Shown here: positions 18,401-45,600 of the stretch, one piece after another
How positions within the stretch are numbered: the stretch's first letter is position 1
Layout of the letters: each line of letters begins with the position of its first letter
NCBI RefSeq assembly: GCF_032854445.1
Contig: NC_088304.1
Location: forward strand, 11,979,704 to 12,043,703
Source of the DNA: Liolophura sinensis
Taxonomy: Eukaryota > Mollusca > Polyplacophora > Chitonida > Chitonidae
DNA length: 64,000 nucleotides
Reading direction: 5' to 3'
Position numbers and translations under genes: made by a program
Notes under the pieces: generated by a model
The model's database searches: none
The model's input: the letters and a program-made list of their open reading frames with translations, nothing else
What the model was told of the DNA's origin: nothing

Positions 18401-21400
18401 TAACCTACATGGAGGCGCTCTGGTGGCGAATTACCCTTATGACAACTACCCCAATGGTAAGGCCATCCAACAAACATGTTTATTAAAAAAAAAACAGATT
18501 TACCTGCAGACAGTCATGCATTCTTAGCAAACATTATAGTACTGGCCATCATGGTATAAGTGAAATATTCTTGAGTACAGTATCAAACTCAGATCAAACA
18601 AATAAATAAAAGGAAGATTTGCGTGCGGTGTAAATCACTAATCAAGTGAATCAATAAAATCTTTTTTGCACTCTTGCAACAGGCATTTTTGGATTTGTTT
18701 CAAGTTTGAACGTGTTGATTTCTGAAATGCTATCCACTGAACTGCGTTCAGTTTTTTGGAAACTATTTATGTATAGATTGACACATATCGTCATATTATT
18801 TATCAGACAGTAAATTAATTGTCTTAACTATCTCTGTCTGTTCAAATATGCTATATACTGTACAGACTGTAATTCTTCAACCTTTTCATGTGTTTGCAAA
18901 GGCGTTTATTCAAGCATATTTTGAAGCCATTATTCTGGATAAACTGCTAAAACTGTAGTTTTTGTGAAACCCTGAAATTGGCCAACCCAACCAATGTAGT
19001 TTTGTCTCCAAAATCAAATTTAAAATGAACGAGGGGGTTAGCCATGGTAGAATACCAGCACAGTGCAATAACCGAGGAACCTCCCACCGATGCAGTGGCT
19101 GTGAGTTCAGTTAATGCTGGCTTCCTCTTCGGCAGTACATGAGAAGTTCTGCCAGCAACCTGCGAATGATCGTGAGTTTCCTCCAGGTTCTGTCTGTTTT
19201 TTTTTTCCACCTTAATGCTGGCCGACGTCGTATAAGTGAAATATTCTTGAGTACGGTGTAAAACACCAATCAAATAAATGAATAAAATCAAGTTGAATCA
19301 AATGTGCTAAAAAAGTTACTCTTTCATATGTGAAAAGGTTGAGGAATTAAGGTAGTATTAATGTCAGGAGAAAAACTACATTTGTCAGCGCTAACTGATG
19401 TTTACTTATTTTTTTTTCCCCATTGATAGTAAATCAGTGATGAATAAGTACAAGGTTGTGATGGATCTCACTTTGCTCATTTGTCTTTAGTACATATACT
19501 TGTTTCAGCCAATGGATCCAAGCCTTCAATTGCCCCTGACGATGATGTATTGAGGCACATTTCATTGGCTTATTCCCTGGCACATTCCACCATGCACCTG
19601 GGCCTCCCGTGTGACAACGAAACATTCACAGATGGAATCACGAACGGAGCTGCCTGGTATCCCATAACAGGTTAGCTATAGTGTACAGTATTTCATTCAC
19701 TCATTCATTAGGCAGTTATGTTTGAGGCATCTAAGTCTCCTGAAAAGGAGAGTAAGAGAAAGGTCCCTAAATGGTTACAAAATGTGAAAATAATTTTATG
19801 CTATAATAATGACTGCATTTCACTTATAAAATTATGTACAAAAATGTGCTTTCAAAAGCACGCGAGGTGTTGAAATATTGCCTTTGATGCCAGCACTTCA
19901 GTTTTTCTGACTAGAAATTAATCTTAAATATTGGCATTTAGGAAACAAAAAAAAATGTGATATTTTTCAAACACTTCTTCAGGTGGATTACAAGACTACA
20001 GTTACAGCTTTCATGGCTGCCCTGAGTTGACACTGGAGGTTTCCTGCTGTAAATATCCCCCTGCTGAACAACTGGAGGAATTCTGGGATTCTAACCGTGA
20101 CGCTCTGCTTACATACATACAGCAGGTTTACTTGGGTAAGAGAGCATATGGTCGGGAAGGTCACCCCTCACAGATTGATACCATGTATTCTGCTTCTGAT
20201 TTTTTTTAATATTTATTTATTTGATTGTTGTTTAACGCTGTACTCAAGAATTTTTCACTTATACGATGGCTGTCAGTATTACGTGTATAAGTTGGGGAAA
20301 CCAGAGTGCCCAGAGTAAACCAACGGCCTTTGGCAAGTTACTGATGAACTTACCCACATGTACAGATATGGACACCATATTGGTAGAAGACCAGTATAGA
20401 GGCCTTCATTAACACTGCTGTGTTTGTGTTTTATGAGAGATTTCTTTTTGCGCATATATTAGTGCGAAGTACCTGAATCAAAGACAGGTTACTGTTTTTA
20501 ATGATGTTGTGTTGTTTAGGTGTGAAGGGAATGATACTTGACAAATCAGGGCGAGGAATACGCAGGGCACGGCTATCGATCCACGGGAGAGAGGAAGCCA
20601 TATTCTGGTCGTCCTCTCAGGGAGAATTCTGGAGAGTTTTATTACCTGGTCACTATAAACTACAGGTAAGTTCTGTTATCTGGTCACTATAGACTACAGG
20701 TGGTTCTGTTACAGTACCTGGTCACTATAATCTACAGATTAACAGCATTCTGTTACCTGGTCACTGAAAAGTACAGGTGAGTTCTGTTACCTGGTCACTA
20801 TAATAATAAACTACAGTTGAATTCTGTTATCAGGTCACTATTAACAACAGACAAGGTCTGTTATCTGGTCATTATAAACTACAGGTAAGTTCTGTTACCT
20901 TGTCACTGTAAACTAGAAATGAGTTCTATTACCTGGTCACAATAAACTATAGATGAGTTCTGTTACCTGGTCACTATAATGATAAACTACAGTTGAATTC
21001 CGTTATCATGTCACTATTAACAACAGACAAGGTCTGTTATCTGGTCATTATAAACTACAGGTAAGTTCTGTTACCATGTCACTGTAAACTAGAAATGTGT
21101 TCTATTACCTGGTCACAATAAACTATAGATGAGTTTTGTTATCTGGTCACTATAATGATAAACTACAGTTGAATTCCGTTATCATGTCACTATTAACAAC
21201 AGACAAGGTCTGTTATCTGGTCATTATAAACTACAGGTAAGTTCTGTTACCATGTCACTGTAAACTAGAAATGTGTTCTATTACCTGGTCACAATAAACT
21301 ATAGATGAGTTTTGTTATCTGGTCACTATAATGATAAACTACAGTTGAATTCTGTTATCAGGTCACTATTAACAACAGACAAGGTCTGTTATCTGGTCAT

Positions 21401-24400
21401 TATAAACTACAGGTAAGTTCTGTTACCATGTCACTGTGAACTAGAAATGAGTTCTGTTACCTGGTCACAATAAACTATAGATGAGTTTTGTTATCTGGTC
21501 ATTATTAACTACAGGTGAATTCTATTCACTGATCACTGTAAACTACAGGTGAGCTGTAAACTACATGTATAAGGTGTATTTGAGGTGTATTGAAGGTGTA
21601 TCTGAGTACTGCCAAATAATGATGATTAGTAGCTCAAGTACACCTATTGTACACCTCAGTGGAGGTGTACCCTGTAAAAATTAGGTCAAAAATATGACGC
21701 CTGAGGTACAGCTGAGGTACGTGCTTATGGTCATGGTGGATTTTCACTGTTTTCACTTTTGTTTTGATAGAAAACAAGTTCAAAGCACTTAAATTTTAGC
21801 TATATAAATTACAGATAAATTTAAGTCAGTGTGTAAGTGCATGCTGTTCCTTGTTTACAGTATCTGTAAATCTCACCTGACTTACAACAGCAACAGTGAT
21901 ATACGTTTACTTGAGGTTTTCTAGCCACTTAATCAAAATTTAGGGTTGCTTCTTTCCTATATCCTTTAGAACTGTTCATTTTCCCAAACATGTTACAAAT
22001 TCTGTGCCAGGAAGCACAGCCTGTGCATAATTGGGTTGTTTTCGCACAGACTGAAATATATTTGCACATGGCCACAGACCCCCCATTAGTTTTCCATAAG
22101 CGACAATGTTAATGTCTAGGGCTGTAGCTTAGCCACAAACATTCCGTGGCCAATAAGTTTGGTGCATAGCTGGTCCAGCCTGTGAGAAAGAAGCCATAAA
22201 AATCTTCACATAGGTTGACCATCAAATTCTGGATCTTTCTATGCCGGCAGCTGGGAGGAGTGCCTAGCAAGGCCAAGGGGACGTCACTCGCAGCCTGATC
22301 ACCACCTGTCTCCTTGTGTCCTCTCGCCCAGAATTTCAAACTTTCATCAGTAAAACTAATACCTGCTCAAAGCTTAGACAATTTCCATCATTTTGATACC
22401 AAGCATGCACCTGTACACTAAAAATGGCAGGCTGGCAGCAAGAAAAGACTTTACACCCTAATATACACAGAATTACATTCCTCCCTCACGAAAAACTGAA
22501 GTTCTAAGTTTGGGCTTTGTGTCCACATTGTTAAGGGCAGCCATTTTGGAGTAATCAGGGAAAAATATATCTCTGCTGTATGATTGGTCAATATTTGTGC
22601 TCTGAATGGCAAGTCAGTTTAGGATGAGACAAAGGCTTATATTTATTTAGTAAAGATTTTTTTCTTTTGCACAAAACCATGTGTAATTTTGTACTCAGGA
22701 TTTTGTCTGAAGCAAAATGTCTAAATCTAATCTCTTGTTTTACAACTTTAAAATAGTGACTTATGTGTACCTGAGGTACATGACAATTGTAAAATTTTAG
22801 TATAAAAACTCTCAAACTTTCTGATATGTACCTGAGGTACATCATTTATTTTTCTTAGTTTTCAAAGTTTCGAAGGTGCACCTCAGGTACATCTTCTAAG
22901 TGTTGATTTTTTTCCAAGTTGCTGAGGTGTATTTGAGTTAGATTATCTCATATTTAGAATCTGCTCAAAAACTCGCAAAGTTTCTGAGGTGTACCTGGGA
23001 TACATCATTCATAATTTTTAAATTTCAAAGGTTCTAAGGTGAACTTGAGTACAAGTCTTCTAAGTGTTGATTTTTTTCACAATTCCTGGGGTACATCTGA
23101 GGTATAGGTATATGACTGGGGTGTACTTGAGGTACAGTACACCTCAGGTAACATAGATGGGGTGTATACTAAGGTGTATGTGAGGCTTACACACCCCACA
23201 TACACCTCGTCTATGCGTCACACTGAGGTGAACACTTTATGCCTGTAAGGGTGGTAACTGTAAGCTACAGGCTGGTGAGTCAGTACAATCTACAGGTGAG
23301 TTCTGGTACCTGGTCAGTACAATCTACAGGTGAGTTCTGTTACTTGGTCAGTACAATCTACAGGTGAGTTCTGTTACCTGGTCATAACAGTCTACAGGTG
23401 AGCTCTGTTACCTGGTCAGGACAATCTACAGGTGAGGTCTGGTACCTGGTCAGTACAATCTAGAGGTTAGTTGTGTTGCTTGGTCAGTACAATCTACAGG
23501 TGAGTTCTATTACCTGGTCAGAACAGTCTACAGGTGAGCTCTGTTACCTGGTCGGAACAATCTACGGGTGAGTTCTGCTACCTGGTCAGAACAGTCTACA
23601 GGTGATCTCTGTTACCTGGTCAGGACAATCTACAGGTGAGTTCTGTTACCTTGTCAGGGCAATCTACAAGTGAGTTCTGATACCTCGTCAGTACAATCTA
23701 CAGGTGAGTTCTGTTACTTGGTCAGTACAATCTACAAGTGAGTTCTGTTACCTGGTCATAACAGTCTACAGGCGAGCTCTATTACCTGGTCAGTACAATC
23801 TACAAGTGAGTTCTGTTACCTGGTCATAACAGTCTACAGGCGAGCTCTGTTACCTGGTCAGGACAATCTACAGGTGAGTTCTGTTACCTGGTCAGTACAA
23901 TCTACAGGTGAGTTCTGGTACCTGGTCAGTACAATCTACAGGTTAGTTGTGTTACTTGGTCAGTACAATCTACAGGTGAGTTCTATTACCTGGTCAGAAC
24001 AGTCTACAGGTGAGCTCTGTTACCTGGTCAAGACAATCTACGGGTGAGTTCTGCTACCTGGTCAGAACAGTCTACAGGTGAGCTCTGTTACCTGGTCAGG
24101 ACAATCTACAGGTGAGTTCTGTTACCTTGTCAGGGCAATCTACAAGTGAGTTCTGGTACCTGGTCAGTACAATCTACAGGTGAGATGTGTTACCTGGTCA
24201 GTACAATCTACAGGTTATTTCTTTTACCTGGTCAGAACAGTCTACAGGTGAGCTCTGTTACCTGGTCAGTACAGTCTACAGGTGAGTTCTGTTACCTTGT
24301 CAGTACAGTGTACAGGTGAATTCTGTTACCTGGTCAGTACAATCTACAGGTGAGTCCTGCTACCTGGTCAGTACAATCTACAGGTGAGTTCTGTTACCTT

Positions 24401-27400
24401 GTCAGTACAATCTACTGGTGATTTCTGTTACCTGGTCAGTACAGTCTACAGGTGAGTCCTGCTACCTGGTCAGTACAATCTACAGGTGAGTCCTGCTGCC
24501 TGGTCAGTACAATCTACAGGTGAGTTCTGGTACCTGGTCAGTACAATCTATAGGTGATTTCTGTTACCTGGTCAGTACAGTCTACAGGTGAATTCTGTTA
24601 CCTGGTCAGTACAATCTACAGGTGAGTCCTGCTACCTGGTCAGTACAATCTACAGGTGATTTCTGTTACCTTGTCAGTACAATCTACAGGTGAGTTCTTT
24701 TAACTGGCCACTGGAGTCTTCAGGTGAGTTATGTTACCTGATCACTTCAAACTTTGAGAGAGTTCTAGATCTGTTACCTGTCACAGTAAAGTACGGTGAT
24801 TTTTGTTACCTGACCAGTGTATATTACAGGAGTGTTTTTAATCTGTTACCAATATGTAGTCACTGTAAAGTTGAGATGAGCTCTGTTACTTGGTCACTGT
24901 AAACTACAGGTTTGGAGACTTCTGGTAGATCTGTTACCAGGTCACTGTAAATTGCAATTGACTTCTAAATCTGCCTGTTATATATACCTAATATTTGTAA
25001 ACCACAGGCTGCAACTTGGAAACTACATGTTAGTTATGGTTTTTGGAGCCTCCATGGCTTGTTTAGCATGCTACCGCAGCCTGATGACCCAGGAGCCTCT
25101 CACCAATGCAGTCGCTATGAGTTCAAGTCCAATTCATGTCAAGGTCTGCCAGCAACCTGTGGATAGTTGGGGTTTCCTCCGAGTAATGCCCGTTTTCCTC
25201 CTACCATAATGCTGGCCGCCGTCATAAGAGTGAAATATTCTTGCGTATGGCGTACAACACCAATCAAATAAATAAATCAATAAATCAATTACGTTTTTAT
25301 TTCAGATATCTGCAGATGGGTACAGAAATTCTCAGGTCTTATTTACAGTAAAATCAGGGGAAGTAACTATGCTAAATGTGCATCTGGATGAGCTGTTAGC
25401 ATTCACATACCACAATTACAGTGAGCTGGGGAGGGTGATGTCATCGCTGAATCAAGGCTTTCCCCACCTAACCCATCTCTACAGTATAGGACAATCCGTA
25501 GAAGGTATCGTTTTATATTGACAACTACAAATGTGGCAAATGACCTCAAATTTGCCTAGGACTGAGTTGCAAGTTTTACCTGATTTTGATTATTCGGTTG
25601 CGATATTAAAGGTGTTTTGAGGTATGTTTGAAAGGTAGGATGATATCCTACTGAAAAAAATGCAAGTTTGAGCATCAAAAGAGATCTTTTATGATATTTA
25701 TTTTGGCTCTAAAGCTGCACAGTGCTGGGTGAAGTTTTAGATCATTTACTGTTTCATTATGAAAGCCGATATTTAAAAAAAAAAAATATCCCTGTTCAAA
25801 ATGAGATTGAAGCCTACATATTTGGCAACTGTTTCACCAGATTTGATATAGATTTGATGCATGACCAGTTCCACAAAGTCATTTTTTTTTCGTTATCAAG
25901 ATTAAAGCTTAGCAAAGTTTTATTCTACCGATGGTTGTGGGTTTACCCTGAGGTTGCTCCCACCATAATGGTGGCTACCATTGAATAACCCCTTGAGTAC
26001 ATGGATAGAAGCTTGCTTTACAGGTCATGGCCCCTTAAATTGAGAAAATTTTATAATTGTTAAAGTGATTTTTGAATCAAAGTTGTCTAATTCATTTAAA
26101 TTATTACGGTAAAATCCACATAGATCAGCGCCATAGGTCAGAGTATAAACTACCCTAAATAACCTAAAATTTCACTAATAAAAGTGCATTTTTAGAGGTA
26201 AATAAATGTGATAAAACATTATTTTAGGTGTTGACACTTACATATCACCTGTAGGATATCATCTCACCATTAAAACTAACCCTAAATCACCTTTCTGTAA
26301 CCAATAGAACTCCCAGAATCATGAAAATAGAACAAGTTAGTCCTTGAAAGAAACTGTAATGGAGATTGTGTTAGTAAATTTTTGGTTGAAGTTAGTGTTT
26401 GCGTAACAATTAGCAAGCATTGTTATGAATGGATTCAGAGAGGCCACGTGGCAAAGTTTGTTGCTAATGGACGCTTACTTTCCATTCCATTCAATACTGA
26501 TTCTATGATGTCACGGAAAGTTTACATACATACGTATATTAGTTTACGTGGTGACTCACGGAATGTTTTTACTTGTGACCAGTGTGTTAATCGTCTTGAT
26601 GACGTGGCATTATTATCACCTTATTCCGTGTGAAGGTCTGTCAGCAACCTGCGGATGGACGTGGGTTTCTCCAGGGCTGTGCTCGGTTTCCTCCTCCATA
26701 ATGCTGGCCGCCGTCGTATAAGTGAAATATTCTTGAGTACAGCATAAAACACCAATCAAATAAATAAATAAATAAATATTACCTAATTGACCTGAAAATA
26801 CTTTTATTTAAACCTACAGCAGGCGAATGTGGTGTTTGAATGCTAGGTTATAAGCCACAGTATGGATCAAATTTCTCCGGTATCGTGTCTAAACATAGTG
26901 CTTAGTTTTGTGAGGAGAATTTCTTTGTAATGGCCTTATATTGTAAAATTAAGGGAGAGGATCTCAGATTTTATAATCTGGTGTGTGAAAATAAGCATAA
27001 CTCACTCTTGCTACAGGTCGAGAATTGTGGGTAATGGCTGTCGGTCAGGCACCTCAGTCGTATGTGACACTTCGTCCTCACCTCAAGTACATTGGCAACA
27101 TCCATGGGAATGAGGTAACTGATGTTGCTGTATATGCAGATCCAGATATCACAAATGCTCTTGCGTAATTTCATTCACAGCATGATTTATCTTTCATCTT
27201 TCTTTCTCAGTCTGTGTCCATTTGTCTTTCTGTTTGTCTATCCATACATAAGTCTGTCAATCGAGCAGTCTTTGTGAACATTAGCCTGTCTCGTAATGAA
27301 GACATCAATCTGTCAGTCAATCTGTAAGATTCTTTGGTTATTTGTCTTTCTGTTTGTCAAGACATCAGTGTGTCAGGCAGTCCATCCTCAATTTCAGGGG

Positions 27401-30400
27401 CCATGTCTTGTCAAGACATCAGTGTGTCAGGCAGTCCATCCTCAATCTCTGGGGCCATGTCTTGTCAAGACATCAGTCTGTCAGGCAGTCCATCCTCAGT
27501 CTCTGTGGCCATGTCTTGTCAAGACATCAGTCTGTCAGGCAGTCCATCCTCAATCTCTGTGGCCATGTCTTGTCAAGACATCAGTCTGTCAGGCAGTCCA
27601 TCCTCAATCTCTGTGGCTATGTCTTTTCAAGACATCAGTCTGTCAGTCAGCTCATCCTCAATCTCTGTAGCCATGTCTTGTCAAGACATCAGCCTGTGGT
27701 CATTTGCCTCCTTTTGGAAATATCAGTCTTTCAGTCCCTCACTCTCTGTGTCAAAACTTTTTTTGTGCCATTTTTCTGTCCCTAGCAGTGTTAAGACATC
27801 AGTCTATCTTTCTGTCACTCTTTGTGATTATTTGTCTCTTCGGCCAGCTGCCCTGTCTGTTTGTGAAGACAGAAGCCTGTCTCTTCATCTCCCTCTGTGA
27901 CTATTTGTCTGTCTTTTTGGCCATTTTGGCCTGATTAGTGAGACTCACAGTCTGTAGAAACCTGCTCATGCATGTTTGGTTGTGGCTTTAAGTCATGTTT
28001 TTTTTCAGGCGTCTGTTAAGGGGCTGTGTGGTTCGTATAGATTATGGAACCTTAAGTTTGACATCACTGGACACCATTGAAATTAATAAATTAATAAGTA
28101 CCAGGCCCCGGTATTACAAAGCGATCTTAGCCTCAAATGCATAAGTCACGATTATAATCATTAAATTTGGTATGTTCCTTTCTGTTGTTTTAGTTGAAAT
28201 TTGTTGTACAATACCTTAACCAGAATATACGTTTTCAAGCAATATTTTAACCTGGTTACATCAGAAATAACAGTTTCAAAGTCATATTAAATTTTGTTTT
28301 AAGTATATTTAAAGAGCGCTTCATGATCCATGGGATCCTGAACTGTAAATCAATTCACTCTCAGAAATCTGTTTGTTCGAGCGAAATAATTTTTTTTGTT
28401 TGCTCTGCAGGTAGTTAGTCGGGAAACACTGCTTCATTTGATTGAGTATCTATTGGTGAATTATGGGAAAAATGACACTGTCACTTCACTGCTGAACTCG
28501 ACTGTCATCCATATCATGCCCTCAATGAACCCAGACGGGTTTGAAGCATCGAGAATGGGAGATTGCGACGGACTTGTTGGACGGTGAGATCACTATGTTA
28601 ACTCACTCATACATTACCTGTCCCATTTCTTTTAAATTTTAGGGCAGATGTTAGTAGTGTTGAAAGCAAAGAATTACATTTCTCTCCCAGTTCACGTTTT
28701 TTGTGGGGGGAAGTAAAGATATGTGTTGTTTATTAGATGGATTAAATTCAAATATTGAACAACCAATGGAAAAAATCTGCGAAAGCAACTTTTACCGAAT
28801 TGGTTGTCACAGCTAAAAAACAGATACAAATGATGCCTGATATGATTCTTGTGGAAATATCTCAAGAAATCTATAATGTTCGGTTCGCTTTTACAACACT
28901 TTTTAAATCGCTAGTTTTGTAACTTTTCAAAGGTTTTGTTTCGTTGAGCAGTGGAAATGCACACGGTGTGGATTTGAACCGCAATTTCCCGGACCATTTC
29001 GAAAACAACAACTACCCGCCAAGACAACCAGAAACTTTGGCAGTCATGGAATGGCTGAAAAACCGTACCTTCGCTCTGTCGGCAGGTTTACATGGCGGGA
29101 TTGAGCTTGTGAACTACCCTCTGGACTATTATGTGGGAGGTGAGTGGAACATTATATGGCGGGATTGAGCTGGTGAACTATCCACTGGACTATTACGTGG
29201 GAGGTGAGTGGAACATTATATGGCGAGATTGAACTGGTGAACTGCCCCCTGGACTATTACGTGGGAAGTGAGTGGAACATTATATGGCGGGATTGAGCTG
29301 GTGAAGTGCTCGCTGGACTATTACGTGGGAGGTGAGTGGAACATTATATGGCGAGATTGAACTGGTGAACTGCCCGCTGGACTATTACATGGGAGGTGAG
29401 TGGAACATTATATGGTGAGATTGAGCTGGTGAAGTGCCTGCTGGACTATTACGTGGGAGGTGAGTGGAACATTATATGGCGGGATTGAGCTGGTGAAGTG
29501 CCCGCTGGACTATTACGTGGGAGGTGAGTGGAACATTATATGGTGGGATTGAGCTGGTGAACTGCCTACTGGACTATTACGTGGGAGGTGAGTGGAACAT
29601 TATATGGTGGTATTGAGCTGGTGAACTACCTGCTGGACTATTACGTGGGAGGTGAGTGGAACATTATATGGTGGGATTGAGCTGGTGAACTGCCTACTGG
29701 ACTATTACGTGGGAGGTGAGTGGAACATTATATGGTGGGATTGAGCTGGTGAAGTGCCCGCTGGACTATTATGTGGGAGGTGCTTGGAACATTATATGGT
29801 GAGATTGAGCTGGTGAAGTGCCTGCTGGACTATTACGTGGGAGGTGAGTGGAACATTATATGGAGAGATTGAGCTGGTGAAGTGCCTGATGAACTATTAC
29901 GTGGGAGGTGAGTGGAACATTATATGGTGGGATTGAGCTGGTGAAGTGCCCGCTGGACTATTACGTGGGAGGTGAGTGGAACATTATATGGTGAGATTGA
30001 GCTGGTGAAGTGCCTGCTGGACTATTACATGGGAGGTGAGTGGAACATTATATGGAGAGATTGAGCTGGTGAAGTGCCTGCTGGACTATTACGTGGGAGG
30101 TGAGCGGAACATTATATGGAGAGATTGAGCTGGTGAAGTGCCTGCTGGACTATTACGTGGGAGGTGAGTGGAGCATTATATGGCGGGATTGAACTGGTGA
30201 AGTGCCTGCTGGACAACTACGTGGGAGGTGAATGGAACATTCCACGGAATAAGTGTTCTCTTTGGCAAGCCACCAGCTCGCCACTAAAGATCACTATTAT
30301 GGTCTTTACTTTTCCCGTGTAATGAGGTGACATGAATTCAGAATTGCATGTATTTCAAGGTCACGGTACAGCTCTTTTTTTCTGGGGTGCAATGTGGGGC

Positions 30401-33400
30401 TTTGACGGCAGATCTGCCAACAGGACAGAATTCAAGGTTGGTGAATGTAACTATTCAGAGCAGTGAATGTGGAAGCTAAGCTGGGCGTAATGACTCAAGA
30501 GCCTCTTACCAATGTGATTGCTCTTGCTCTTTCTGACGTCCTCTCTGGCCCTACATGGGAAGATTTTTAAGTGGGTTTCACCTGGGCTCTGCCCGGTTTC
30601 TTCCCACCATAATGCTGACCGGTATCATGTACATGGAATATTGTTGAATTCAGCAGTCAAACGAATAAAAAACAACATTTATCTGATACAGCAAGAATTC
30701 ACGTAAATTTCATTCAAAGTTTCCTGTAAGTGATTTTATGATGTGATATAAATGTATGAAATGCATCCTGAAGTTATTTAAAGTGAAAGACAGCACCTAA
30801 CAAATGTTTATGTTGGCTGAAAATCTACCTGTCAAAGCATCTTAAACCGGCATTAAATATTTTTTTTAGATTTCATTCAACCCAGTAAAAGTTTAGTAAA
30901 AGTTCATTTTGACTCAGCCTTATCATCTCTCCATGATCGAGAGCAAGAGGGCGTCACGTTTACTCTAGCCCTCCAGCGTTGAAGGTACTTTCTGTATAAT
31001 AGAAAAAGTAGTAGCCTATGGCAGATGAAAGTTGTGGACCTCAGTGATGAAGGCCCAAGTGATAAATATAGTTTTTATGGAAATTGAACATACTGATAGA
31101 ATCTTTCTATCACTGCTTGAACTGTTGAAAAAGTAGACCTACTATATTATTTACAAGAAATTCCCGCGACACGGTATAAATAGCCAGCTGCAGATGCACG
31201 GCCGGGGTATTCTTGGTTCAAGTCGTAGCCTACAGGAGCGTTGTGCTGCCTGGTGATTTTGACTCTATTAAATGTTTACAAATTTACAACAGGATTGTCG
31301 TACAACTAGATTCATGTTCAATTCTGAAACAAATGGAAATAAATCTAAGCACCACTGAGACTGATCTAGGCATTTGATTTTATGCTTCAATTTTGTATCA
31401 GTGGCTTGTATTAAGATGAAACTAGTGCTGACCAAGGTATCATGGACATCAGAGAAAGCACTTCGTTTTGAACATGGTGTTTCAATAATTTTACTGTTTT
31501 TTATAAAAGAAAACAGAAAAAAAAAAAACTCTTGTATGCGGGAAAGGGGAAGTTGTAGTACATTCAGAGATTTAATATCATGAATGTTTTCATTTTAAGT
31601 GATAATTTTAAATTTTAAGTATTCTAGTGAGATGTCATCCTCTCGTTCCCACAAACCTTCGGCATCCCTAATGAATTTTGCACTGACTCTGATATTTGAT
31701 ATTGAAAAACTGCTGACTAAAAGCCAAAATGAACAACAAAAAATGTATTTGGGGAGATAATGCGGTTTGGGCTGTGACAGTATGCTATTGTCCGACATAA
31801 TTTGTGATACCGTCATTGAATATTACATGATTTGTAAATCATCTGATTTTGCATATGTGATGGTCCATAAATGACAGACCTATCCAACAATGCCTCTCAG
31901 CCAATGAGAGTCGTTAAAACTGCTGCCTTGTTCGTGTAAACTCGGAACCTACGTCCAACATTCCGTTTTCCGGATCGTCAAGTGGAAAATGAACTGGTAC
32001 TGTTCACTACCTTCTGGGAAGAAGAATTCTACCAGAAATGTAGGAACTGCATTTCGGTGGCCTCTGACAGCAATTCTCCTCCTAACACAGAATACTTCAG
32101 GACTAGTTCTCAGGCAAAATGGAGTTGCCCACAGCAGATTTTGGCACTAACTTTATTTATAATTTATCAACTTGAGGTACATATTAGAATTTTTTTATGA
32201 CATGCACCTGAGAGGAAATGCATACTCCTTTCAAAGGTATTTGATTGATATTTAAATTTTCTTCTCCTTTAAAATAATAAAGTATGATACTTTTTAGATA
32301 GCTTGAGTATTGTTCTTTCAATTTAAATATGTTTTAGCCAGGTACTGTCTTCTCCTTTGTACAATAAAAGACCGGTCATATTTAAAATTTTCTTTACAGC
32401 TGCCAGTGGGGAACCGAAGTATTCAAAATCGGCTGACGACGATGTTTTTCGATACATCTCATTGGTCTACTCCAGGACACATCCCAGAATGCACCTGGGT
32501 CAGCCGTGTGTGAACCAGGTGGAGAGATTTAAGGATGGGATAACAAATGGAGCCGCCTGGTATCCTATTGTTGGTACGGTGACTTGGCCATTTTTTTATA
32601 GGTCGTGAAATGTATCATACTTCATAACATGTACACAACTTATATAGTCTGCAAGTTCTCTTTGGTTCACTAGGAAGCAAATATCAGTTATAAAATAAAA
32701 CAGAATTGTTATACCTCCCAGTAAGTTTTTTTTATTCCACTGTAACTATTTGTTTATCATTGTACAGGATTTATTTATTTCATTGATGTTTTTTGCAATA
32801 CTCAAGAATATTTCACTTGTACAACAATAGCCAGCATTATGGCGGGAGGAAACCAATCAGAGCCCAGTGAAAACCCATGACCAGCTGCAAGGTTTGCTGC
32901 CAGACCTTTCAACATACGACAGGAGAGGAAGCCAGCATGAGCTGGACTTGAACTCACAGCGACTGCATTGGTAAGAGGTTTCGAAGTCATTGTGCTGACA
33001 CGCTAACAACTCAGCAACGGAAGCCCTCCATTTATTTAAAGGAGCACGCTATTACCTCGGCCGCTGAAGCCCTCCATTTACAGGAGGATGCTAACAACTT
33101 CGCAGTGGAAGCCGTTCATTTACAGGAGGGTGCTAACAACTCAGTTGGGGAAGCCCCCCATTTATAGTTGCCTTCAGTTTGTTTGTGTGAGTGTTCAAGC
33201 AGATATTATTACTTCGGAATGCGTTACTCTAGTTATGTGCTTATCTTTGTGCTGGATGAATTCATTACTCTAGTTATGTGCTTATCTTTGTGCACGAGGA
33301 ATGTGTTACTCTAGTTATGTGTTTATCTTTGTGCTGGATGAATTCATTACTCTAGTTATGTGCTTATCTTTGTGCACGAGGAATGCGTTACTCTAGTTAT

Positions 33401-36356
33401 GTGCTTATCTTTGTGCACGAGGAATTCATTACTCTAGTTATGTGCTTATCTTTGTGCACGAGGAATGTGTTACTCTAGTTATGTGTTTATCTTTGTGCAG
33501 GAGGAATGCAGGACTACAACTATTTGTTTGAGGGCTGCATGGAAGTACTTGTGGAGATGAGTTGTTGTAAATTTCCATACGAGCAAGAACTGAAGAGACT
33601 CTGGGATGAGCACCGAGCACCACTGTTGGCATATCTACAACAGATCAATCTCCTAGGTGAGAATTCCAAACTGGGTGGGGTGTTATGTCTGGTGTCTTAG
33701 GTATGATACATGTACTCAGTGGCAGCAGCACCTGGGCAGCATGTACTGACCGTGCAAGAAGACAGCAGTTTCTGTCTACAAACCTATTGACTCCCTGTTG
33801 TCATATGACACAACATCTGAAAAAACCTGTCACAGGAGTGTTTTTGTACTTGTGTATATACATGTGTGTGTAGTTTGCTTGTGTGATGATGAGTTAATCA
33901 ATTACTGTGATTGAATTGACCACTGAGTTATTCAATTACTGTGATTGTTTTGACCACTGAGTTAATCAATTACTGTGATTGTTTTGACCACTGAGTTAAT
34001 CAATTACTGTGATTGAATTGACCAATGAGTTAGTCAATTACTGTGATTGAATTGACCAATGAGTTAGTCAATTACTGTGATTGTTTTGACCACTGAGTTA
34101 ATCAATTACTGTGATTGAATTGACCAATGAGTTAATCAATTACTGTGATTGTTTTGACCACTGAGTTAATCAATTACTGTGATTGTTTTGACCAATGAGT
34201 TAATCAATTACTGTGATTGTTTTGACAACTGAGTTAATCAATTACTGTGATTGTTTTGGCCAATGAGTTAATCAATTAATGTGATTGTCTTAACCATTGA
34301 GTTAATCAATGACTGTGATTGTCTTGACCGATGAGTTAATCAATTATTATGGTTGATTTGACACAGTTTATTGTATGCATAATTTAAGTTTATGATTTGG
34401 GCTTAATACACGATAGTTTTTGGCCAGGTGTACGTGGTGTGATCAGAAGACCAGGTGGTCAGCCAGTGGGCGGAGCTTCCTTGTCTATCGTCGGCCGGGA
34501 CGTCAAGTTCAGAACATCCAGCCAGGGAGAGTACTGGAGACTCCTTCTGCCTGGACAGTACAGCTTAAAGGTAAACTGTTGATGATTTTTTCAGTTTTAT
34601 TTTATTGATTTATTTATTTGATTAGTGTTGTATGCTGTACTAAAGAATATTTCACTTATACGACGGGGACCAGCATTATGGTGGGAGGAAACCGGACAGA
34701 GGCCAGGGTAAATGCATGACCATCTGCAGGCTGCTGGCAGACCTTCCCACATATGCGCATGGAAATAAGCCAGCATGAGAGAGATTTGAACAAACAGCAG
34801 CTGCTTTGCAAAGAGGCTCCTGGGTCATTGTGGCCCAGTTGCTAATAACTTTGTGACTTGAAGATTCACTGGTATACACGTAACCAGTTGCATTGTTATT
34901 TTGCATACGTGAGCTCTGAAGACCCAACGCAACAGTCGAGTTGGGTCTTTAGCTCTCTGGTATGCAAAGCTTTACAGTTTCTTTGCCTTCAAAGCTGTAT
35001 TGTGCCTGAAATGCACTTCCACTTGACCAGTAATGTCTGAATTCTAATTTCAGCACATCCTGGTTCTGCTGAAGCTTAAGTCAGGAAGTTTCTCACATAC
35101 TAAATGAGGTGCTGTGCCACTTCCCAGTTTCTGATAGGTTTCCTCCACCCTAAAAACAACCACGCATTTATGCATGTAAGTGAAAGTATGGTTGATGACA
35201 CCTAAAGTCCCAGTGGAATTATTCGATTAGGATTAGCATTCACATGCTGGAAATTGTTGTGCTGACTTGTGCAATTCATGAAATACATGTAGTTGATCGG
35301 ATGCTTTTAGGTGGAGCTTGTTCTTTTCCTGTTTATATCATCAGATTTAAAGAGTCGATCGATGAAATAATTCTTATGCTGTGAACATGGCTTGCACAAT
35401 ACTTGAACAAAAATTCAAACCCCTGCATTTTTCCTCTGTAAAGATGTCTGAAATTTGTCACCAATTTTATGTTCCCTATAAAGCATGATTTTTTTTTATC
35501 ACAAGTAAGAAAATTAGTTGAAGAAATTATTTCAATATCTGTTATTACACATAGATATCTTCTGTGTGTGATATGGTGAGCTTTGTGCCAACTTTATTAA
35601 GTTTTAATAAATTATAGTTAGAAAAGGTGATAGCACATTATAGTACATGTACTTTTAATGCTATCTGTTATCTTCTACTTTTAATGTTATTTGTTATCTT
35701 CTACTTTTAATGTTATTTGTTATCTTCTGTTATGTGAGCTCTGTGCCAGCTAACTTTAGAAAATTATGGTGAGAAAATGTAATAACAAATTATAGTACTT
35801 TTAAGGCTATCTGTTGTGTGCTACTTTTTAGGCTATCTGTTGTCTTCTACTTGTAATGTTATCTGTTGTCTTCTACTTGTAATGTTATCTGTTGTCTTCT
35901 ACTTTTAATGTTATGTTATCTTCTGCTCTGCCAGATTTATTAAACTTAAGAAAATTATACTTAGAAAATATGATAATAAAGTATAGAACTTTTAATGCTA
36001 TCTGTTATCTTCTACTTTTTATTATGTTATTTTCTGCTCTGAATTAAACATTAGTAAATTATGTTTAGATAATAATAATAAAATACACTTTTAATGATGC
36101 GTGTTATCTTCTGCTTTTGATGTCATCTGTTATCTTCTGCTCTGCAAGCTATGCGGCAACTTCATTAAACATTAATAGATTATAGTTAGAAAATATGATG
36201 AAAATTATGCTACTTTCAGTGTTATTTTGACCTTTGTAGGTGACAGCAGCAGGGTTTGAATCCGTCACAAAACAGTTCACTGTGAACAACAACACCGTCA
36301 CCCGGTTTGATATAACATTGGAGACAGTGAAATCCTTGTCTGATGCCCCCCTGCTG
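15305..36356 (+). CDS. CPD: Carboxypeptidase D-like protein, two catalytic domains (whole gene span, 15 coding exons)
   Basis: Metallocarboxypeptidase of family M14B, which removes C-terminal Arg/Lys from peptides in the secretory pathway. Joined exons give 784 residues. Residues 1 to about 25 are a signal peptide. Catalytic domain 1 (about 27-318) has HGNE at 92-95 (zinc His92, Glu95), NRNFPD at 162-167, third zinc His199, Tyr265 and catalytic Glu287. A transthyretin-like domain spans about 320-400. Domain 2 (about 405-696) has His464, Glu467, Asn534/Arg535, His572, Tyr642 and Glu664, followed by a second transthyretin-like domain (698-784). Both active sites look intact. Intron phases are 1,0,2,1,1,1,0 in both halves, the signature of a module duplication. 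Vertebrate CPD has three catalytic domains, the third inactive; no third one is visible here. The last exon and any transmembrane tail are uncertain. Family call is firm; CPD rather than another two-domain M14B member is inference. Confidence 0.92.
15731..15972 (+). mobile_element. SINE family A, near full length, CPD intron 1
   Basis: Starts with the tRNA-like head (tccatggctgaggtggttag) and ends in (AAAT)n; the B box is degraded. Confidence 0.88.
16330..16427 (+). CDS. CPD: CPD exon 2: zinc-binding HGNE of domain 1
   Basis: Residues 63-95. Starts G-R-D-L-W-V after tttcag and ends NMHGNE before gtgagt. It contains two of the three zinc ligands. Confidence 0.93.
16615..16990 (-). mobile_element. 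SINE family B-related copy, CPD intron 2
   Basis: gttgtacttaactatttttc and agtcatatgacgagga, then accagacatgacacccca. Confidence 0.7.
17144..17316 (+). CDS. CPD: CPD exon 3: domain 1
   Basis: Residues 96-152 plus two bases. Contains [14 protein letters not shown] and the family motif PSLNPDGFE, then C..KQGR across the junction. Confidence 0.93.
17317..18271. other. CPD intron 3
   Basis: About 0.95 kb of AT-rich sequence. I see no repeat, SINE or exon. Confidence 0.6.
18272..18456 (+). CDS. CPD: CPD exon 4: substrate-binding NRNFPD and third zinc His of domain 1
   Basis: Residues 153-214. [13 protein letters not shown] carries Asn162/Arg163, and LHGG carries zinc His199. The aspartate usual in GVDLNRN is replaced by Asn (GENLNRN); domain 2 keeps the Asp. 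Confidence 0.93.
18529..18622 (+). mobile_element. SINE family A, 3' fragment, CPD intron 4
   Basis: gtataagtgaaatattcttg plus (AAAT)n. Confidence 0.8.
19040..19290 (+). mobile_element. SINE family A, long copy, CPD intron 4
   Basis: Head remnant gctgtgagttcagttaatgc through caccaatcaaataaatgaat. Confidence 0.85.
19509..19670 (+). CDS. CPD: CPD exon 5: domain 1
   Basis: Residues 215-268. Contains [14 protein letters not shown] and ITNGAAWYP, whose Tyr265 is the expected Tyr248-type active-site residue. Flanked by tttcag and gttagc. Confidence 0.93.
19983..20135 (+). CDS. CPD: CPD exon 6: catalytic Glu of domain 1
   Basis: Residues 269-319. GGLQDYSY is followed by [14 protein letters not shown], with catalytic Glu287. 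Donor ttgg|gtaag. Confidence 0.93.
20208..20405 (-). mobile_element. SINE, family C-like, CPD intron 6
   Basis: Family A-like tail (tttatttgattgttgtttaa) joined to a different body (ggcctttggcaagttactga) shared with the 40605 and 55425 copies. Confidence 0.65.
20520..20665 (+). CDS. CPD: CPD exon 7: transthyretin-like domain 1
   Basis: Residues 320-368. [14 protein letters not shown] and [17 protein letters not shown] match the beta-sandwich domain that follows each M14B catalytic domain. The last coding bases and donor (CTACAG|GTAAGT) are the founder-like unit of a large downstream minisatellite. Confidence 0.92.
20640..21560 (+). repeat. Exon 7-donor minisatellite, part 1 (176-base higher-order repeat)
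   Basis: Begins inside CPD exon 7: ttacctggtcactataaac plus tacaggtaagttctg recurs in units of about 35 bases. Five units form a higher-order repeat: the block aacaacagacaagg starts at 20843, 21019, 21195 and 21371, an exact 176-base spacing. Many units keep the exon end and a GT donor. Confidence 0.93.
21561..23260. repeat. 1.7-kb insertion rich in GTACCTGAGGTAC-type palindromes
   Basis: Separates the two halves of the exon 7-donor minisatellite. It contains repeated near-palindromes (gtacctgaggtac, gcacctcaggtac, gaggtgtac) and no donor units. Probably a transposed or decayed DNA element. No coding capacity seen. Confidence 0.6.
23261..24960 (+). repeat. Exon 7-donor minisatellite, part 2 (34-base unit)
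   Basis: About 43 units of 34 bases, consensus ggtcagtacaatctacag plus gtgagttctgttacct, degenerate after 24720. Most units contain CAGGTGAGT, a near-perfect 5' splice site, and retain the TACCTGGTCA of exon 7. Confidence 0.93.
25043..25290 (+). mobile_element. SINE family A, full length, abutting CPD exon 8
   Basis: Head gagcctccatggcttgttta, B box gagttcaagtcc and (AAAT)n tail, ending about 15 bases before the exon 8 splice junction. Confidence 0.9.
25306..25504 (+). CDS. CPD: CPD exon 8: end of transthyretin domain 1, start of catalytic domain 2
   Basis: Residues 369-434. ISADGYRNS.. finishes the first transthyretin-like domain, and [13 protein letters not shown] begins catalytic domain 2. 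The acceptor lies only about 15 bases after the tail of a SINE. Confidence 0.9.
25608..26290. repeat. Inverted pair of the unnamed interspersed repeat, CPD intron 8
   Basis: Forward copy at 25608-25720 (aaaggtgttttgaggtatgt ... tttattttggctctaaa); reverse-orientation copy at about 26155-26290 (tagaggtaaataaatgtgat ... ctaaatcacctttctg). Together they look like a MITE-like palindromic element. Confidence 0.5.
25920..26005 (+). mobile_element. SINE family A, decayed fragment
   Basis: gatggttgtgggtttaccct and caccataatggtggc. Confidence 0.5.
26629..26780 (+). mobile_element. SINE family A, body and tail, CPD intron 8
   Basis: gtgaaggtctgtcagcaacc to acaccaatcaaataaataaa. Confidence 0.88.
27017..27114 (+). 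CDS. CPD: CPD exon 9: zinc-binding HGNE of domain 2
   Basis: Residues 435-467. Counterpart of exon 2 with the same length (98 bases) and phases. Ends NIHGNE with His464 and Glu467. Confidence 0.93.
27350..27705. repeat. 54-base minisatellite in CPD intron 9
   Basis: Units with tcaagacatcagtctgtcag and gcagtccatcctcaatctct. The period is divisible by three, which keeps all three forward frames open and produces false ORFs of up to 188 codons. No splice junction in the unit. Confidence 0.92.
28411..28583 (+). CDS. CPD: CPD exon 10: domain 2
   Basis: Residues 468-524. Counterpart of exon 3, of identical length (173 bases). Contains [19 protein letters not shown]. Confidence 0.93.
28952..29139 (+). 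CDS. CPD: CPD exon 11: NRNFPD and third zinc His of domain 2
   Basis: Residues 525-587. [10 protein letters not shown] (Asn534/Arg535), LHGG (His572), ending LDYYVG before gtgagt. The last 60 or so bases of the exon and its donor are repeated about 18 times downstream with a 64-base period. Confidence 0.93.
29078..30236 (+). repeat. Exon 11-donor minisatellite (64-base unit, ~18 copies)
   Basis: Each unit holds ctggactattacgtgggag plus gtgagtggaacattatatgg. The first copy is the real end of CPD exon 11 with its donor at 29139/29140. Later copies keep the donor almost unchanged (spacing 64, e.g. 29141 and 29205). Confidence 0.95.
30468..30672 (+). mobile_element. SINE family A, diverged, CPD intron 11
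   Basis: gcgtaatgactcaagagcct, then cggtttcttcccaccataat. Confidence 0.78.
30680..32399. other. CPD intron 11, repeat-free part
   Basis: AT-rich sequence after the SINE. No recognised exon or repeat. A 72-codon open frame at 31982-32200 has no known motif. Confidence 0.55.
32400..32573 (+). CDS. CPD: CPD exon 12: domain 2
   Basis: Residues 588-645. Counterpart of exon 5: [14 protein letters not shown], then ITNGAAWYP with Tyr642. Confidence 0.92.
32767..33025 (-). mobile_element. SINE family A, full length, CPD intron 12
   Basis: Reversed copy with head catgagctggacttgaactc ...gctaacaactcagc. Its terminal sequence seeds the repeat at 33005-33175. Confidence 0.87.
33005..33175. repeat. ~50-base tandem repeat derived from a SINE end
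   Basis: Three copies of gctaacaact...ggaagccctccatttata. The unit comes from the tRNA-like end of the SINE at 32767-33025. Confidence 0.75.
33218..33512 (+). repeat. Exon 13-acceptor minisatellite (41-base unit, 7 copies)
   Basis: Unit ttactctagttatgtgctta plus tctttgtgcacgaggaatg.. ends at the real junction ctttgtgcag|gaggaatgc (33500/33501). Upstream copies have gcac or gctg where the true copy has gcag. Confidence 0.92.
33501..33656 (+). CDS. CPD: CPD exon 13: catalytic Glu of domain 2
   Basis: Residues 646-697. GGMQDYNY is followed by [14 protein letters not shown], with catalytic Glu664. Its acceptor and first bases (TTTGTGCAG|GAGGAATGC) are the last unit of a 41-base tandem array in the preceding intron. 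Confidence 0.92.
33885..34345. repeat. 34-base minisatellite in CPD intron 13
   Basis: About 13 copies of ttgaccactgagttaatcaa plus ttactgtgattgtt. No splice junction in the unit. Confidence 0.92.
34428..34570 (+). CDS. CPD: CPD exon 14: transthyretin-like domain 2
   Basis: Residues 698-745. [17 protein letters not shown] and [17 protein letters not shown] parallel exon 7. Donor aaag|gtaaac. Confidence 0.92.
34598..34855 (-). mobile_element. SINE family A, long copy, CPD intron 14
   Basis: tttatttatttgattagtgt through aagccagcatgagagag. Confidence 0.85.
35630..36165. repeat. ~25-base minisatellite nested in a longer repeat, CPD intron 14
   Basis: Copies of cttttaatg.tatctgttat with cttcta, interleaved with an aaattatagttagaaaa block that recurs about every 140-170 bases. 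Confidence 0.8.
36240..36356 (+). CDS. CPD: CPD exon 15: end of transthyretin domain 2 (last recognised exon)
   Basis: Residues 746-784. [15 protein letters not shown].. parallels the start of exon 8. The exon ends at a possible donor ctg|gtaaca (36356). If that site is not used, the frame runs 21 more codons, mostly hydrophobic, to a TAG at 36420-36422. Which end is real cannot be decided from the sequence. Confidence 0.78.
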
Positions 36357-39789: not shown

Positions 39790-39935
39790 CTTATTTATTT
39801 GATTAGCGTTTTACACTGTACTCAAGAATATTTCACTTACATGTATACAACGGCGGCCAGCATTATGGTGGGAGGAAATTGGGCAGTGCCAGGGGAAACG
39901 CATGACCATCTGCAGGTTGAAGCCAGACTTTCCCT
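39790..39935 (-). mobile_element. SINE family A, body and tail
   Basis: gattagcgttttacactgta to acgcatgaccatctgcaggt. Confidence 0.85.
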
Positions 39936-40935: not shown

Positions 40936-41221
40936 CCAGGACCTGCTCCATTTGTGGTGTGACGCTGCTGCTGTCAGTCCGTGAAATTTAATGTGTGTCA
41001 ATATGTAAATGTACAATAACAGTTATTATTTAAAATTACATCAAACATCCGGATTATGTTTTCCACTGGCTTCTCAGTGTTGCACAGTTTTTGTACTCCA
41101 AAGGGTTAGCCAGATATGCATTACAGGGGCTCAAAGCATGGCCTGTAACAAGCAGCTGGGTACATAATGTCATAAACATAGGCATGGAGACTGTTATGTC
41201 ATGTAAACAAGAAAAGTTAAT

Positions 41222-41452
41222 ATTTTAGATTGGTGTTTTACGCCGTACTCAAGAATATTTCACGTATACGACGGCGGCCAGCATTATGGTGGGGGGAAAC
41301 CGAGTACAGCCCGGGGGAAACCCACGACCATCCGCAGGTTGCTGGCAGACCTTCCCAAATAAGGCCGGAGAGGAAGCCAGCATGAGCTGGACTTGAACTC
41401 ACAACGACCACATTGGTGAGAGGCTCCTGGGTCATTATGCTGCGCTAGCACA
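41222..41452 (-). mobile_element. SINE family A, full length
   Basis: gattggtgttttacgccgta through gaggctcctgggtcattatg. Confidence 0.92.
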
Positions 41453-41484
41453 AGGAGATAGACTCCTCATACGACGCATATAGT

Positions 41485-41757
41485 CTATACTATGTGCGAG
41501 TGAATGAGTGGTTGGGGTTTAACGTCATACTTAACAATTTTTCAGTCATATGACGACGAAGGAATCCTTAGAGTGCATGTCCTTGTTGCAGGACGGATTT
41601 CCACTGCTCTTTTATCTAGTGCTGCTTCACTGAGACGCCTTACTGAAGGCAAGTAAGCCAGCCAGCCAGCCAGCCAGCCAGAGCAATTATACTGATACCG
41701 GTCAACCAGTCGTTGCAAAATATCCCCTTCATGCTGAACGCCAAGCAACGAAGTTAC
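41485..41757 (-). mobile_element. SINE family B, 5'-truncated
   Basis: gtttaacgtcatacttaaca, tcagtcatatgacgacgaag and ccttcatgctgaacgccaag. Confidence 0.85.
41658..41682. repeat. (CCAG)n microsatellite
   Basis: Six or so gccagccag units inside a SINE copy. Confidence 0.85.
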
Positions 41758-42580
41758 AACTTCCTCTTTTAAGAAGCCTGTGTTGAAGTAACCCTACCGT
41801 CCCATATGACGGCCCCATGTATAACATGGTATAAGGGACATCACTATATACTACTGATCACTATCGTATGAAAAATGAACAGGACGGCTGGTCAGAATAA
41901 AATCATAAATCTCTCTTAAGTACATCTTTATGCGTAATTTTTTTCCCCAAAGACAATCATGATGATCATATGGCACAAATATGTCCCATATACTGCAAAC
42001 TCATTGAGCAAGATCATTCGAATGTAGAAAAATTATGACCACAGAAAAACAAGCTAAAGCTTAAAAAAAAAAAAAGCATATAAAATTGTAAGCTAAGTAA
42101 CAGCATTTGACTTTTTTTTTACTTGGCATTTTTTCACCAGATAAATACTTCATTTCATCTGCTTAATACTGTGAATATAAGAAATAGCTAAAAGCAAAAG
42201 ATCTGATGCCTAATGATGATATACGTGTAATGTGAAGGAATGAGTGTAAAAATGAGATGCATAAAACACGTCCTGATAAACGCCAGAGCCATGGCATCTC
42301 ATTAACACTGCCACGCAGATTTCAATTCTTAGTACCATAGTTCAGCCTACATGAAGTGTACTTACATAAGTAAAGCGTGGTCAAATATCAAACACATACT
42401 ACCTAAGAAAGATAATGAAGTCACTTATAAATACATTTGGTCAGTTTGGTAGCACTATACTAGGATTTCTGAGGCCTTCTCACAGGAGAAAGAATGTGCA
42501 TTATTAGAGGTACAAAGATTGGACAGCTGTCCACTCATCACAGTGGAGACAGGAGAGGTCCATAGGAAGGGAGGTAACTG

Positions 42581-42658
42581 TCAGAGATTGATGCTGGCTA
42601 CGTTTGCTGGCAACTCCTGAGTGCTCACTCTAAACGTTCCAATAGACTGGATGGATTC
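42581..42658 (-). CDS. DGCR8: DGCR8 exon 16: C-terminus and stop
   Basis: Residues 627-651, [11 protein letters not shown].. ending ASINL, then TGA at 42583-42581. The acceptor is tatttgtttcag. Placed by phase and the strong acceptor; this tail is not conserved. Confidence 0.8.
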   Translation of the reverse strand, partial: ESIQSIGTFRVSTQELPANVASINL

Positions 42659-45600
42659 CTGAAACAAATACATTTGTATCCATTTTATTTTTGTGAAAAT
42701 GTCAGCATTTTTCTAAATGAGTGCTTAAGGAGACTACAATGTATCTTTTTTGCATGCATGTAACTACTATGTAGCCAGATTTTCACCATAAAACCAAAAG
42801 CATGAATGACCAGGTAAAATCAGAGAATTTATACCCAATGCTATAAAATATGCTAAATTTGTGCAAGAATCTGGTTGGGTTTTGAACGTGATCTATGACA
42901 CGAATAAAAAATGATCCTTCACACAAAATTTTATCCAAGTAGAATGAAATTTGGAGGAGTTATTGCATGGAAACCTAAGCATCAAAGGACAGACAGAAAG
43001 ACCAAAATTACATACATGTACTGTATGTATTTATTTATTTATTTGATTGGTGTTTTATGCCATACTCAAAAATGTTTTACTTATACGACGGCAGCCAGCA
43101 TTATTGTGGGAGGAAACCGAGCAGAGCCCGGGGAAAACACACGACCATCTGCAGACCTTCCCACATACGGCTGCAGATGAAGCAAGCATGATCTGGACTT
43201 GAACTCACAGCAACTGCATTGGTGAGAGACTCCTGGGTCATTACGCTGCACTGGCGCGCTAACCAACTGAGCCAGTGATCAAGATTTACACAGCTTGACT
43301 AACTTTACACGCTTCCAGAGTCCACATGTCCATAGCTAAAGAAACACTAGACAGATATATTTGCCTTTTAAGGACAAACTTTTCTGTCAGCGAAATACCT
43401 TCACAATATTCGCAGCACAGTTGCAGACACACTCTGTGGATTTTCCTGTCTGTCTCTGTCAGTGATGTTTGTCATGTGAGCTAGTAGATCATGTGACACA
43501 AACAAAATGGCAACATAATTCAGCACTGTTTGATTGGTCAATCGAATGTCTCGAGCACAAAAAAAGCGCTGGAGCGGGCATACTACACAGACAGTGGAAC
43601 CACCAGGGACTATTTTTTCCCTGGTATACATATCTGACATGTTTGATACAGGTGAATTTTGCAGGTGGACAAGATTGGCTGAGCAATACGCCGTTGCTGG
43701 TGCAGACACAAATTTATGAGCCAAAAAAATCTGCCTCTTGTGTTCTCGGCTTACGACAAATACCTACCCTCTGCTGCTGTAATTTTGTCATCTCCACTTT
43801 TAACTTGTCCAGTACAGCTGTATTAGGCCGGTTAGCTTTGGCATTCACCTGTAGATGAGTGATGCTTTGTTCTTCTTGCTGCAATTACAATCAGAAATCA
43901 GTATTTCAAAACATTCCACAGTTTCAGATTACATTTATTTAGTTGGTTTGTTTCTCATACCGGAGACTTTGGAGGAAAAATACTGTCTGTCATCATACAA
44001 GTGGAAAATTTTTAAATGGGGCATTAAGGAAAATGAGCAAGAGATTTTACTGCAAGAAATCGATCCTGCACCTTGTGTGTTCCAGCGATTAAAAAGCAAT
44101 GACATTCACTCATTATTTCTTAACCCTTTATCCAAGTGCAAGTCTGAATGAAATTTTTGCTTTTACAATTCTGATGAAGGACAAAGTCCCTTTAGTATAA
44201 CCAATATAAAAACTAATATAAAAACCGGCTACAAACCTTTTTCTCCCTGATAGCATTACAACTTCCCCTGCCATAAAGCCTCAACAAAGACCCCCAGCTC
44301 TGTACATGAGGATGTAACAACTGTAACACAAGATATGGGTGACACATTTCAATGTGAACAATACACCTGACAACAAGGACCCCCAGCTCTGTACATGCGG
44401 ATGTAACAACTGTAACACAAGAGACAGGTGACACATTTCAATGTGAACAATACACCTGACAACACAGACCCCCAGCTCTGTACATGAGAATGTAACAACT
44501 GTAATACAAGATACAGGTGACACATTTCAATGCAAACAACACACCTGACAACACGGACCCCCAGCTCCGTACATGAGAATGTAACAACTGTAATACAAGA
44601 TACAGGTGACACATTTCAATGCAAACAACACACCTGACAACACGGACCCCCAGCCCCGTACATGCGGATGTAACAACTGTAATACAAGATACAGGTGACA
44701 CATTTCAATGCAAACAACACACCTGACAACACGGACCCCCAGCTCTGTACATGCGGATGTAACAACTGTAATACAAGATATGGGTGACACATTTCAATGT
44801 GAACAATACACCTGACAACACAGACCCCCAGCTCTGTACATGCGGATGTAACAACTGTAATACAAGATATGGGTGACACATTTCAATGTGAACAATACAC
44901 CTGACAACACGGACCCCCAGCTCTGTACATGTGGATGTAACAACTGTAATACAAGATACAGGTGACACATTTCAATGTGAACAATACACCTGACAACAAG
45001 GACCCCCAGCTCTGTAAGATATACATGTATGTGCACGAGTCCACAAAGCACATATATGTATTACAATAAACTTTGAACATACATGCACATGCGCTCTTGT
45101 TTATTTACCTGTGCATAAACATGCTCAAAAATCTTCAGCACGTGTAAATATGTCTTTATCACCTGGAAAGCCAGAGGCATGTTTTACATGTAATCTCTCG
45201 AAAATGACTGACAGCTTAGTTTTCCATGCAGCACTGAGTACTCACCTGTAGAATGGCCTGGGCAGCAGACTGTTTGCCTTCTCTCTTGTTCTTACATACA
45301 ACCTGCAACAACAACAACAGTTTCTCATTTAGGCCGAGTTCTTGGTCGGTGTTTTAAGTAATGTACTTCACACAGAGTTTAAGGACTGGTGAGAGAAAAT
45401 GAAAATATCATGCAGTAAATCATTTGATGTTTGTTTATTTGTTTGATTGGTGTTACCCTATTTCTTCTAAATTTTGGGACACCTGGTCTGCTCATTTTAG
45501 TCCATATGTATGTAATTTGAGCAGAAATATTGAGTTTCCCTTTTCTCAAATGGTTAGATTTAATGAACATACTCATATCTTTACTTTTCCAAGAGGCAAA

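Follow-up and report, generated by a model that had tools for sequence, protein, structure and literature searches.

Minisatellites built from the junctions of exons and introns have already been given a name, "mirages", in genes of amphioxus (PMC3087553, PMC3902484), among them Adh3, the globin genes BflGb6 and BflGb9, TnC and PGBD5. We analyse here comparable structures in a mollusc, Liolophura sinensis, starting from a stretch of 64,000 nucleotides (hereafter the window; positions 11,979,704 to 12,043,703 of NC_088304.1, part of contig C10 in the 609-Mb genome). A preliminary description of this window, made from its letters, had reported four minisatellites built from splice junctions in the genes CPD and DGCR8 and knew of no named description for them. 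The structure is real, recurrent and already named, and is presently extended to a mollusc.

According to both amphioxus papers, the original description of the Adh mirage is that of Canestro 2002, and regular splicing seems undisturbed by the mirages (PMC3087553, PMC3902484). The paper on the globin mirages reports that the length of the arrays is unstable, proposes them as a source of new introns and describes the copies at the boundary of a cluster as exempt from homogenisation (PMC3087553). In potato, a duplication across an intron-exon boundary is reported to have created a new intron (PMC4974935). For molluscs, a paper on Conus introns mentions only simple repeats (PMC3862624), and an earlier mollusc case was not found in the open-access literature, molluscs and gastropods included, most subscription papers falling outside this search.

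Junction arrays of CPD and DGCR8

The arrays were located with Tandem Repeats Finder and then read directly in register, and the true junction of each was set with exon models including splice sites, five exon edges of the window being removed or corrected by hand. All four reported arrays were recovered by these means. Three belong to CPD, on the plus strand. Array A (20634..21553, 34-bp unit) copies the 5' splice site of exon 7 (20520..20665), with its junction at 20665|20666 (...CTACAG|GTAAGT). Array C (29088..30241) repeats a 64-bp unit made of the last 52 nt of exon 11 (28952..29139) and the first 12 nt of intron 11, with its junction at 29139|29140, and array E (33216..33509, 41-bp unit) copies the 3' splice site of exon 13 (33501..33656), with its junction at 33500|33501 (TTGTGCAG|GAGGAATGC). 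The fourth, array D (44282..45016, minus strand, 89-bp unit), copies the 3' splice site of a DGCR8 exon (44237..44320, minus strand), with its junction at 44320 (TTACAG|TTGTTACATCC). The four exons are supported by both exon models and PDB matches, and the arrays lie in introns 7, 11 and 12 of a partial CPD model of 15 exons and in a DGCR8 model of nine exons. As described beforehand, two arrays copy 5' and two copy 3' splice sites, and each true junction sits within the exon-proximal terminal copy of its array. Contrary to the earlier proposal, the start of the repeats does not coincide with the exon edge: the outer ends of arrays A, C, E and D reach 32, 52, 9 and 39 nt into the exon, and the founding segment therefore straddled the junction.

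Intron 7 of CPD (20666-25305, 4.6 kb) contains a second block, array B (23279..24744, plus strand), identified by Tandem Repeats Finder and direct reading, whose unit is of the 34-bp family of array A (CTACAG|GTGAGT...) and which touches no exon. Its kinship with A is read from the sequence, and it is probably a displaced part of that array. About half of the intron is taken up by A, B and degenerate copies beyond B, an arrangement which suggests that a single junction repeat, interrupted at a later time, accounts for most of the intron's growth. In CPD intron 12, a 42-bp array at 33002-33164 immediately precedes array E. It holds TTTACAG|GAGGATGC, resembling the real acceptor CAG|GAGGAATGC, and may be an earlier mirage of the exon 13 acceptor that has since decayed.

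Splicing the 15 exons of the CPD model at the terminal copies of A, C and E yields one uninterrupted frame of 744 aa, whose best PDB match is carboxypeptidase D (464 bits). The DGCR8 protein has DGCR8 as its best PDB match (157 bits), in an alignment that crosses the junction using the terminal acceptor of array D, and both gene names proposed in the preliminary description are thus upheld. None of 50 alternative donors keeps the CPD frame open (0/17 in C, 0/8 in A where candidates were limited to ACAGGT matches, and 0/25 in B where they were limited to ACAGGTGAG matches). In array E, the seven upstream positions in register all lack AG, and the next three copies after the terminal one of array D meet stops when read in the required frame. 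The working junction is apparently the outermost copy of each array, and we infer from the sequence that the spliceosome uses this exon-proximal copy.

Recurrence in genes sampled without regard to repeats

Three protein-family samples of the same genome, totalling 287 kb, were selected without regard to repeats: myosin head (154,415 bp), dynein AAA_6 (66,116 bp) and kinesin motor (66,913 bp). Their regions were taken by the closeness of the family matches under a letter limit, before repeats were inspected, and hold 65 of the 81 myosin, 86 of the 90 dynein and 58 of the 132 kinesin matches. Before modelling, 13 hidden Markov model matches were removed (one weak match and 12 that hit copies of an exon repeated within an array), together with all those with an E-value of at least 0.5. 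A unified pipeline then provided models for 284 exons and their 546 edges and detected 79 arrays; it included first acceptors and last donors for all genes, which an earlier count had omitted before one dynein donor was added to it by hand. A phase-consistent exon pair backs 164 of the 225 modelled introns, the others being backed by splice-site scores alone. An array was considered edge-spanning when at least 5 nt of it lay on each side of an exon edge.

Fifteen edge-spanning arrays, distributed over 12 regions, were counted among the 79 (myosin 9/52, dynein 4/11, kinesin 2/16), a rate of 15 per 546 modelled exon edges; in the window they are 4 of 17. The structure recurs beyond the window, which is no oddity. 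Among the 19 edge-spanning arrays of window and samples, 12 lie at 5' and seven at 3' splice sites. Clear examples are an 82-bp array on contig C11 (...GGGGATCACAAG|GTGAGT, 12 intronic copies found), a 95-bp array in region C1_67511300 (TGTTTTCAG|CCAACCCCTTGC) and, in region C12_3985100, an acceptor array (92 bp) and a donor array (83 bp) in one gene. Two arrays are marginal, with 6 nt of exon each. In region C9_4626100, the acceptor was first modelled one unit off; after correction it remains inside the array, which then includes 6 nt of exon. The exon-side part measures 6-115 nt and stays below one period in all 19 arrays (14 of the 15 independent ones before the C9_4626100 acceptor was corrected).

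Junction arrays have longer units than the others (median 66 versus 34 bp), as expected if longer units straddle edges more easily, and the arrays themselves are also longer (median 525 versus 332 bp). The impression that their period is never a multiple of three did not last, the single exception among 17 arrays (P=0.018) becoming three among 19 with the kinesin sample (P=0.14). In the window, myosin and dynein regions, arrays of all kinds make up 43.6 of 284.5 kb (15%), and the median intron length is 1277 bp with an edge-spanning array, 1400 bp with interior arrays alone and 475 bp without arrays. Arrays contribute to intron length.

Some further features were encountered in these regions and elsewhere in the genome. 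A muscle myosin gene (C1:26636800-26650800) contains repeated exons, with three matches to the QANPVLEAYGNAKT exon and two to the SGESGAGKTENTKK exon, and resembles in this respect genes with mutually exclusive exons. The muscle myosin head matches the PDB entries 3i5f (735 bits) and 1dfk/1b7t (697), which we take to be squid and scallop proteins, more closely than vertebrate Myosin-7 (about 673) or 3jbh (619), presumably from an arthropod. The window carries on both strands many copies of a translatable repeat resembling a short interspersed element (e.g. 41229-41393 and 60367-60558 on the plus strand, 8119-8421 on the minus strand), presumably akin to one known from molluscs. At C8:37880506-37891931, eight haemocyanin-family matches follow one another, each within an open frame of 429-529 aa; this family is not known outside molluscs, and a PDB comparison of one unit gave haemocyanins such as KLH1 of the keyhole limpet. 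Myosin and haemocyanin thus both indicate a mollusc, and a lancelet host, which the literature on mirages had made conceivable, is rejected. A match to the GFP family was also missing, a weak argument since the control genomes yielded none either.

Origin and maintenance of the arrays

The arrays probably arose by random tandem duplication, tolerated as long as the junction is preserved in the outermost copy, and for the most part they give the impression of a by-product that a minisatellite-rich genome tolerates. Short segments would be duplicated in tandem at random and the duplicates would expand by slippage or unequal exchange. A founder straddling an exon edge would survive only if its outermost copy retained an intact exon end and splice site; such a change would be tolerated because everything beyond the outermost copy leaves with the spliced intron. 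The inner copies would then drift as intron, their decoy splice sites being retained in some and lost in others. An exon part of less than one period, as in every edge-spanning array, is expected if only arrays growing into the intron survive, and it supports retention through tolerance, already envisaged in the preliminary description.

The frequency of edge-spanning arrays was compared with two null models, whose P-values treat arrays as independent. The simple null places the founder unit uniformly over non-exonic and tolerated edge-spanning positions. The stricter null considers, for each array-bearing intron, where the unit would fall at the intron length preceding expansion; it placed 68 of the 79 arrays, the other 11, three of them edge-spanning, lying outside any modelled intron. 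In the window alone, four junction arrays were seen against 0.59 expected under the simple null (P=0.002), which agrees with the earlier suspicion that they exceed chance, but the window had been selected for these arrays and the excess in the independent samples is 1.8- to 2.7-fold. About 37-55% of the edge-spanning arrays are thus expected from minisatellite density alone.

Several observations nevertheless weigh against a purely random and tolerated origin. The comparison of array ends with exon edges that the preliminary description had proposed, run here in the samples, gave a positive result under the simple null (15 seen of 79, 5.51 expected, P=0.00019) and a modest one under the stricter null (12 seen of 68, 6.56 expected, P=0.019). 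This excess at junctions is not completely accounted for by the simple random model. Moreover, the use of the terminal copies that the model presumes is deduced from protein conservation and reading frame. The evidence for the excess leans largely on myosin: under the stricter null, myosin accounts for 7 arrays versus 4.02 expected, dynein for 3 versus 1.47 and kinesin for 2 versus 1.06, myosin and dynein without the window give 10/52 versus 5.74 (P=0.039), and dynein alone under the simple null is not significant (3 versus 1.49, P=0.17). There may be a modest extra preference for junctions.

Such a preference could reflect duplication directed to junctions, for instance by DNA damage or template switching linked to transcription or splicing, so that arrays would be born there more often. 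The excess in samples that were not selected for repeats, as well as that of the window, speaks for this explanation, which we nonetheless regard as unlikely. The 1.8-fold excess left by the stricter null comes mainly from myosin, and both 5' and 3' sites are affected. Where the founder lies with respect to the junction cannot be told apart from a uniform placement (Kolmogorov-Smirnov P=0.97, n=15; P=0.82, n=19; small samples of low power), which argues against slippage anchored at a splice motif, one of the local processes that the preliminary description had suggested. The donor bias of 54 non-junction arrays is not strand-specific (donor z 1.9 sense, 2.1 antisense), and their acceptor scores are lowered on the sense strand (z -3.2); these shifts look like an effect of base composition rather than of splice motifs.

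The fate of the splice sites inside the arrays bears on another explanation, that the extra copies aid splicing, by recruitment of U1 or U2AF or by stepwise removal of the intron, and are retained by selection. Splice dinucleotides, donor scores and distances between copies were analysed in the window, myosin and dynein arrays. That the unit carries the splice site, as first described, holds for the intronic copies found in arrays C (GT in 17/17) and D (AG in 7/7), but the dinucleotide is mostly gone in A (GT in 6/20) and wholly gone in E (AG in 0/6), and these losses do not favour a function. Over the 17 edge-spanning arrays, AG or GT is present in every copy found in 12 and missing in one or two copies in three, A and E being the remaining two. 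In the 12 arrays with at least three alignable copies, 12 dinucleotide changes were counted versus 12.2 expected from random pairs: decoy sites are neither purged nor clearly kept, and the same figures show no systematic silencing of them. The ten arrays with GT or AG in their consensus show two changes versus 8.8 expected, the one result in favour of selection, which is suggestive at most as the subset was selected by outcome and the difference is weak (P=0.09). Functional arrays thus appear improbable.

Collapse or wrong expansion of repeats during assembly deserves very little credence as the source of the arrays. The copies are not identical (in array C, intronic copies share a mean identity of 92%) and the same anatomy was found again in unrelated genes. 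In the globin study, the BflGb6 mirage is described in two haplotypes, and one mirage is said to have been misassembled in the draft genome (PMC3087553); exact copy numbers could likewise be wrong here. Least probable of all is a dispersed, introner-like mobile sequence inserted with its splice sites and then amplified: the units do carry splice sites, and A and B share theirs within one intron, but the units contain exon sequence of their own host gene, and a whole-genome search with the four window units matched their home loci alone (A/B 27, C 18, D 8 and E 4 matches, lower bounds given its limited sensitivity for repeats), and a dispersed element is rejected for these four.

Significance and relation to described systems

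These results extend a little-studied oddity of lancelets to a mollusc and provide its rate in sampled genes. At 15 per 546 edges, a gene with 15-20 exons could average about one junction array, which is relevant to gene annotation and to ideas on the lengthening of introns. Rows of equally strong decoys, such as the 17 intact donors of CPD intron 11, provide a natural setting in which to test the choice that the spliceosome makes between identical sites. A genuine excess at junctions would indicate that some mutational process is linked to exon edges. In its strongest and rather doubtful form, a process linked to transcription or splicing would direct duplications to junctions independently in lancelets and molluscs, and genes would continually grow arrays of decoys that the spliceosome must ignore.

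The arrays share with ordinary intronic minisatellites a range of unit lengths that overlaps with that of the non-junction arrays of the same genes, and differ from them by a terminal unit that includes conserved coding sequence and a working splice site. Unlike introner elements, the four window units gave no matches at unrelated loci. As in the intron gain described in potato (PMC4974935), a tandem duplication over an intron-exon boundary brings splicing signals along; unlike in intron gain by tandem duplication, the copies lie here inside an existing intron, with no new intron or exon inferred. The closest likeness is with the mirages of amphioxus. In both, the unit spans the exon-intron boundary (4/17 arrays of the window and 15/79 of the samples), both 5' and 3' boundaries are concerned (12 and 7 of 19), and many copies, not all, keep AG or GT (17 arrays examined). 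An exemption of the boundary copy from homogenisation, as in the globin mirages, is not supported here: of the 10 arrays with enough copies, only 4 have an authentic copy that stands further from the other copies than these do among themselves. An array of about 42 copies is a named difference from the amphioxus mirages. The other difference, that the host is here a mollusc and not a cephalochordate, is one of host range and not of structure.

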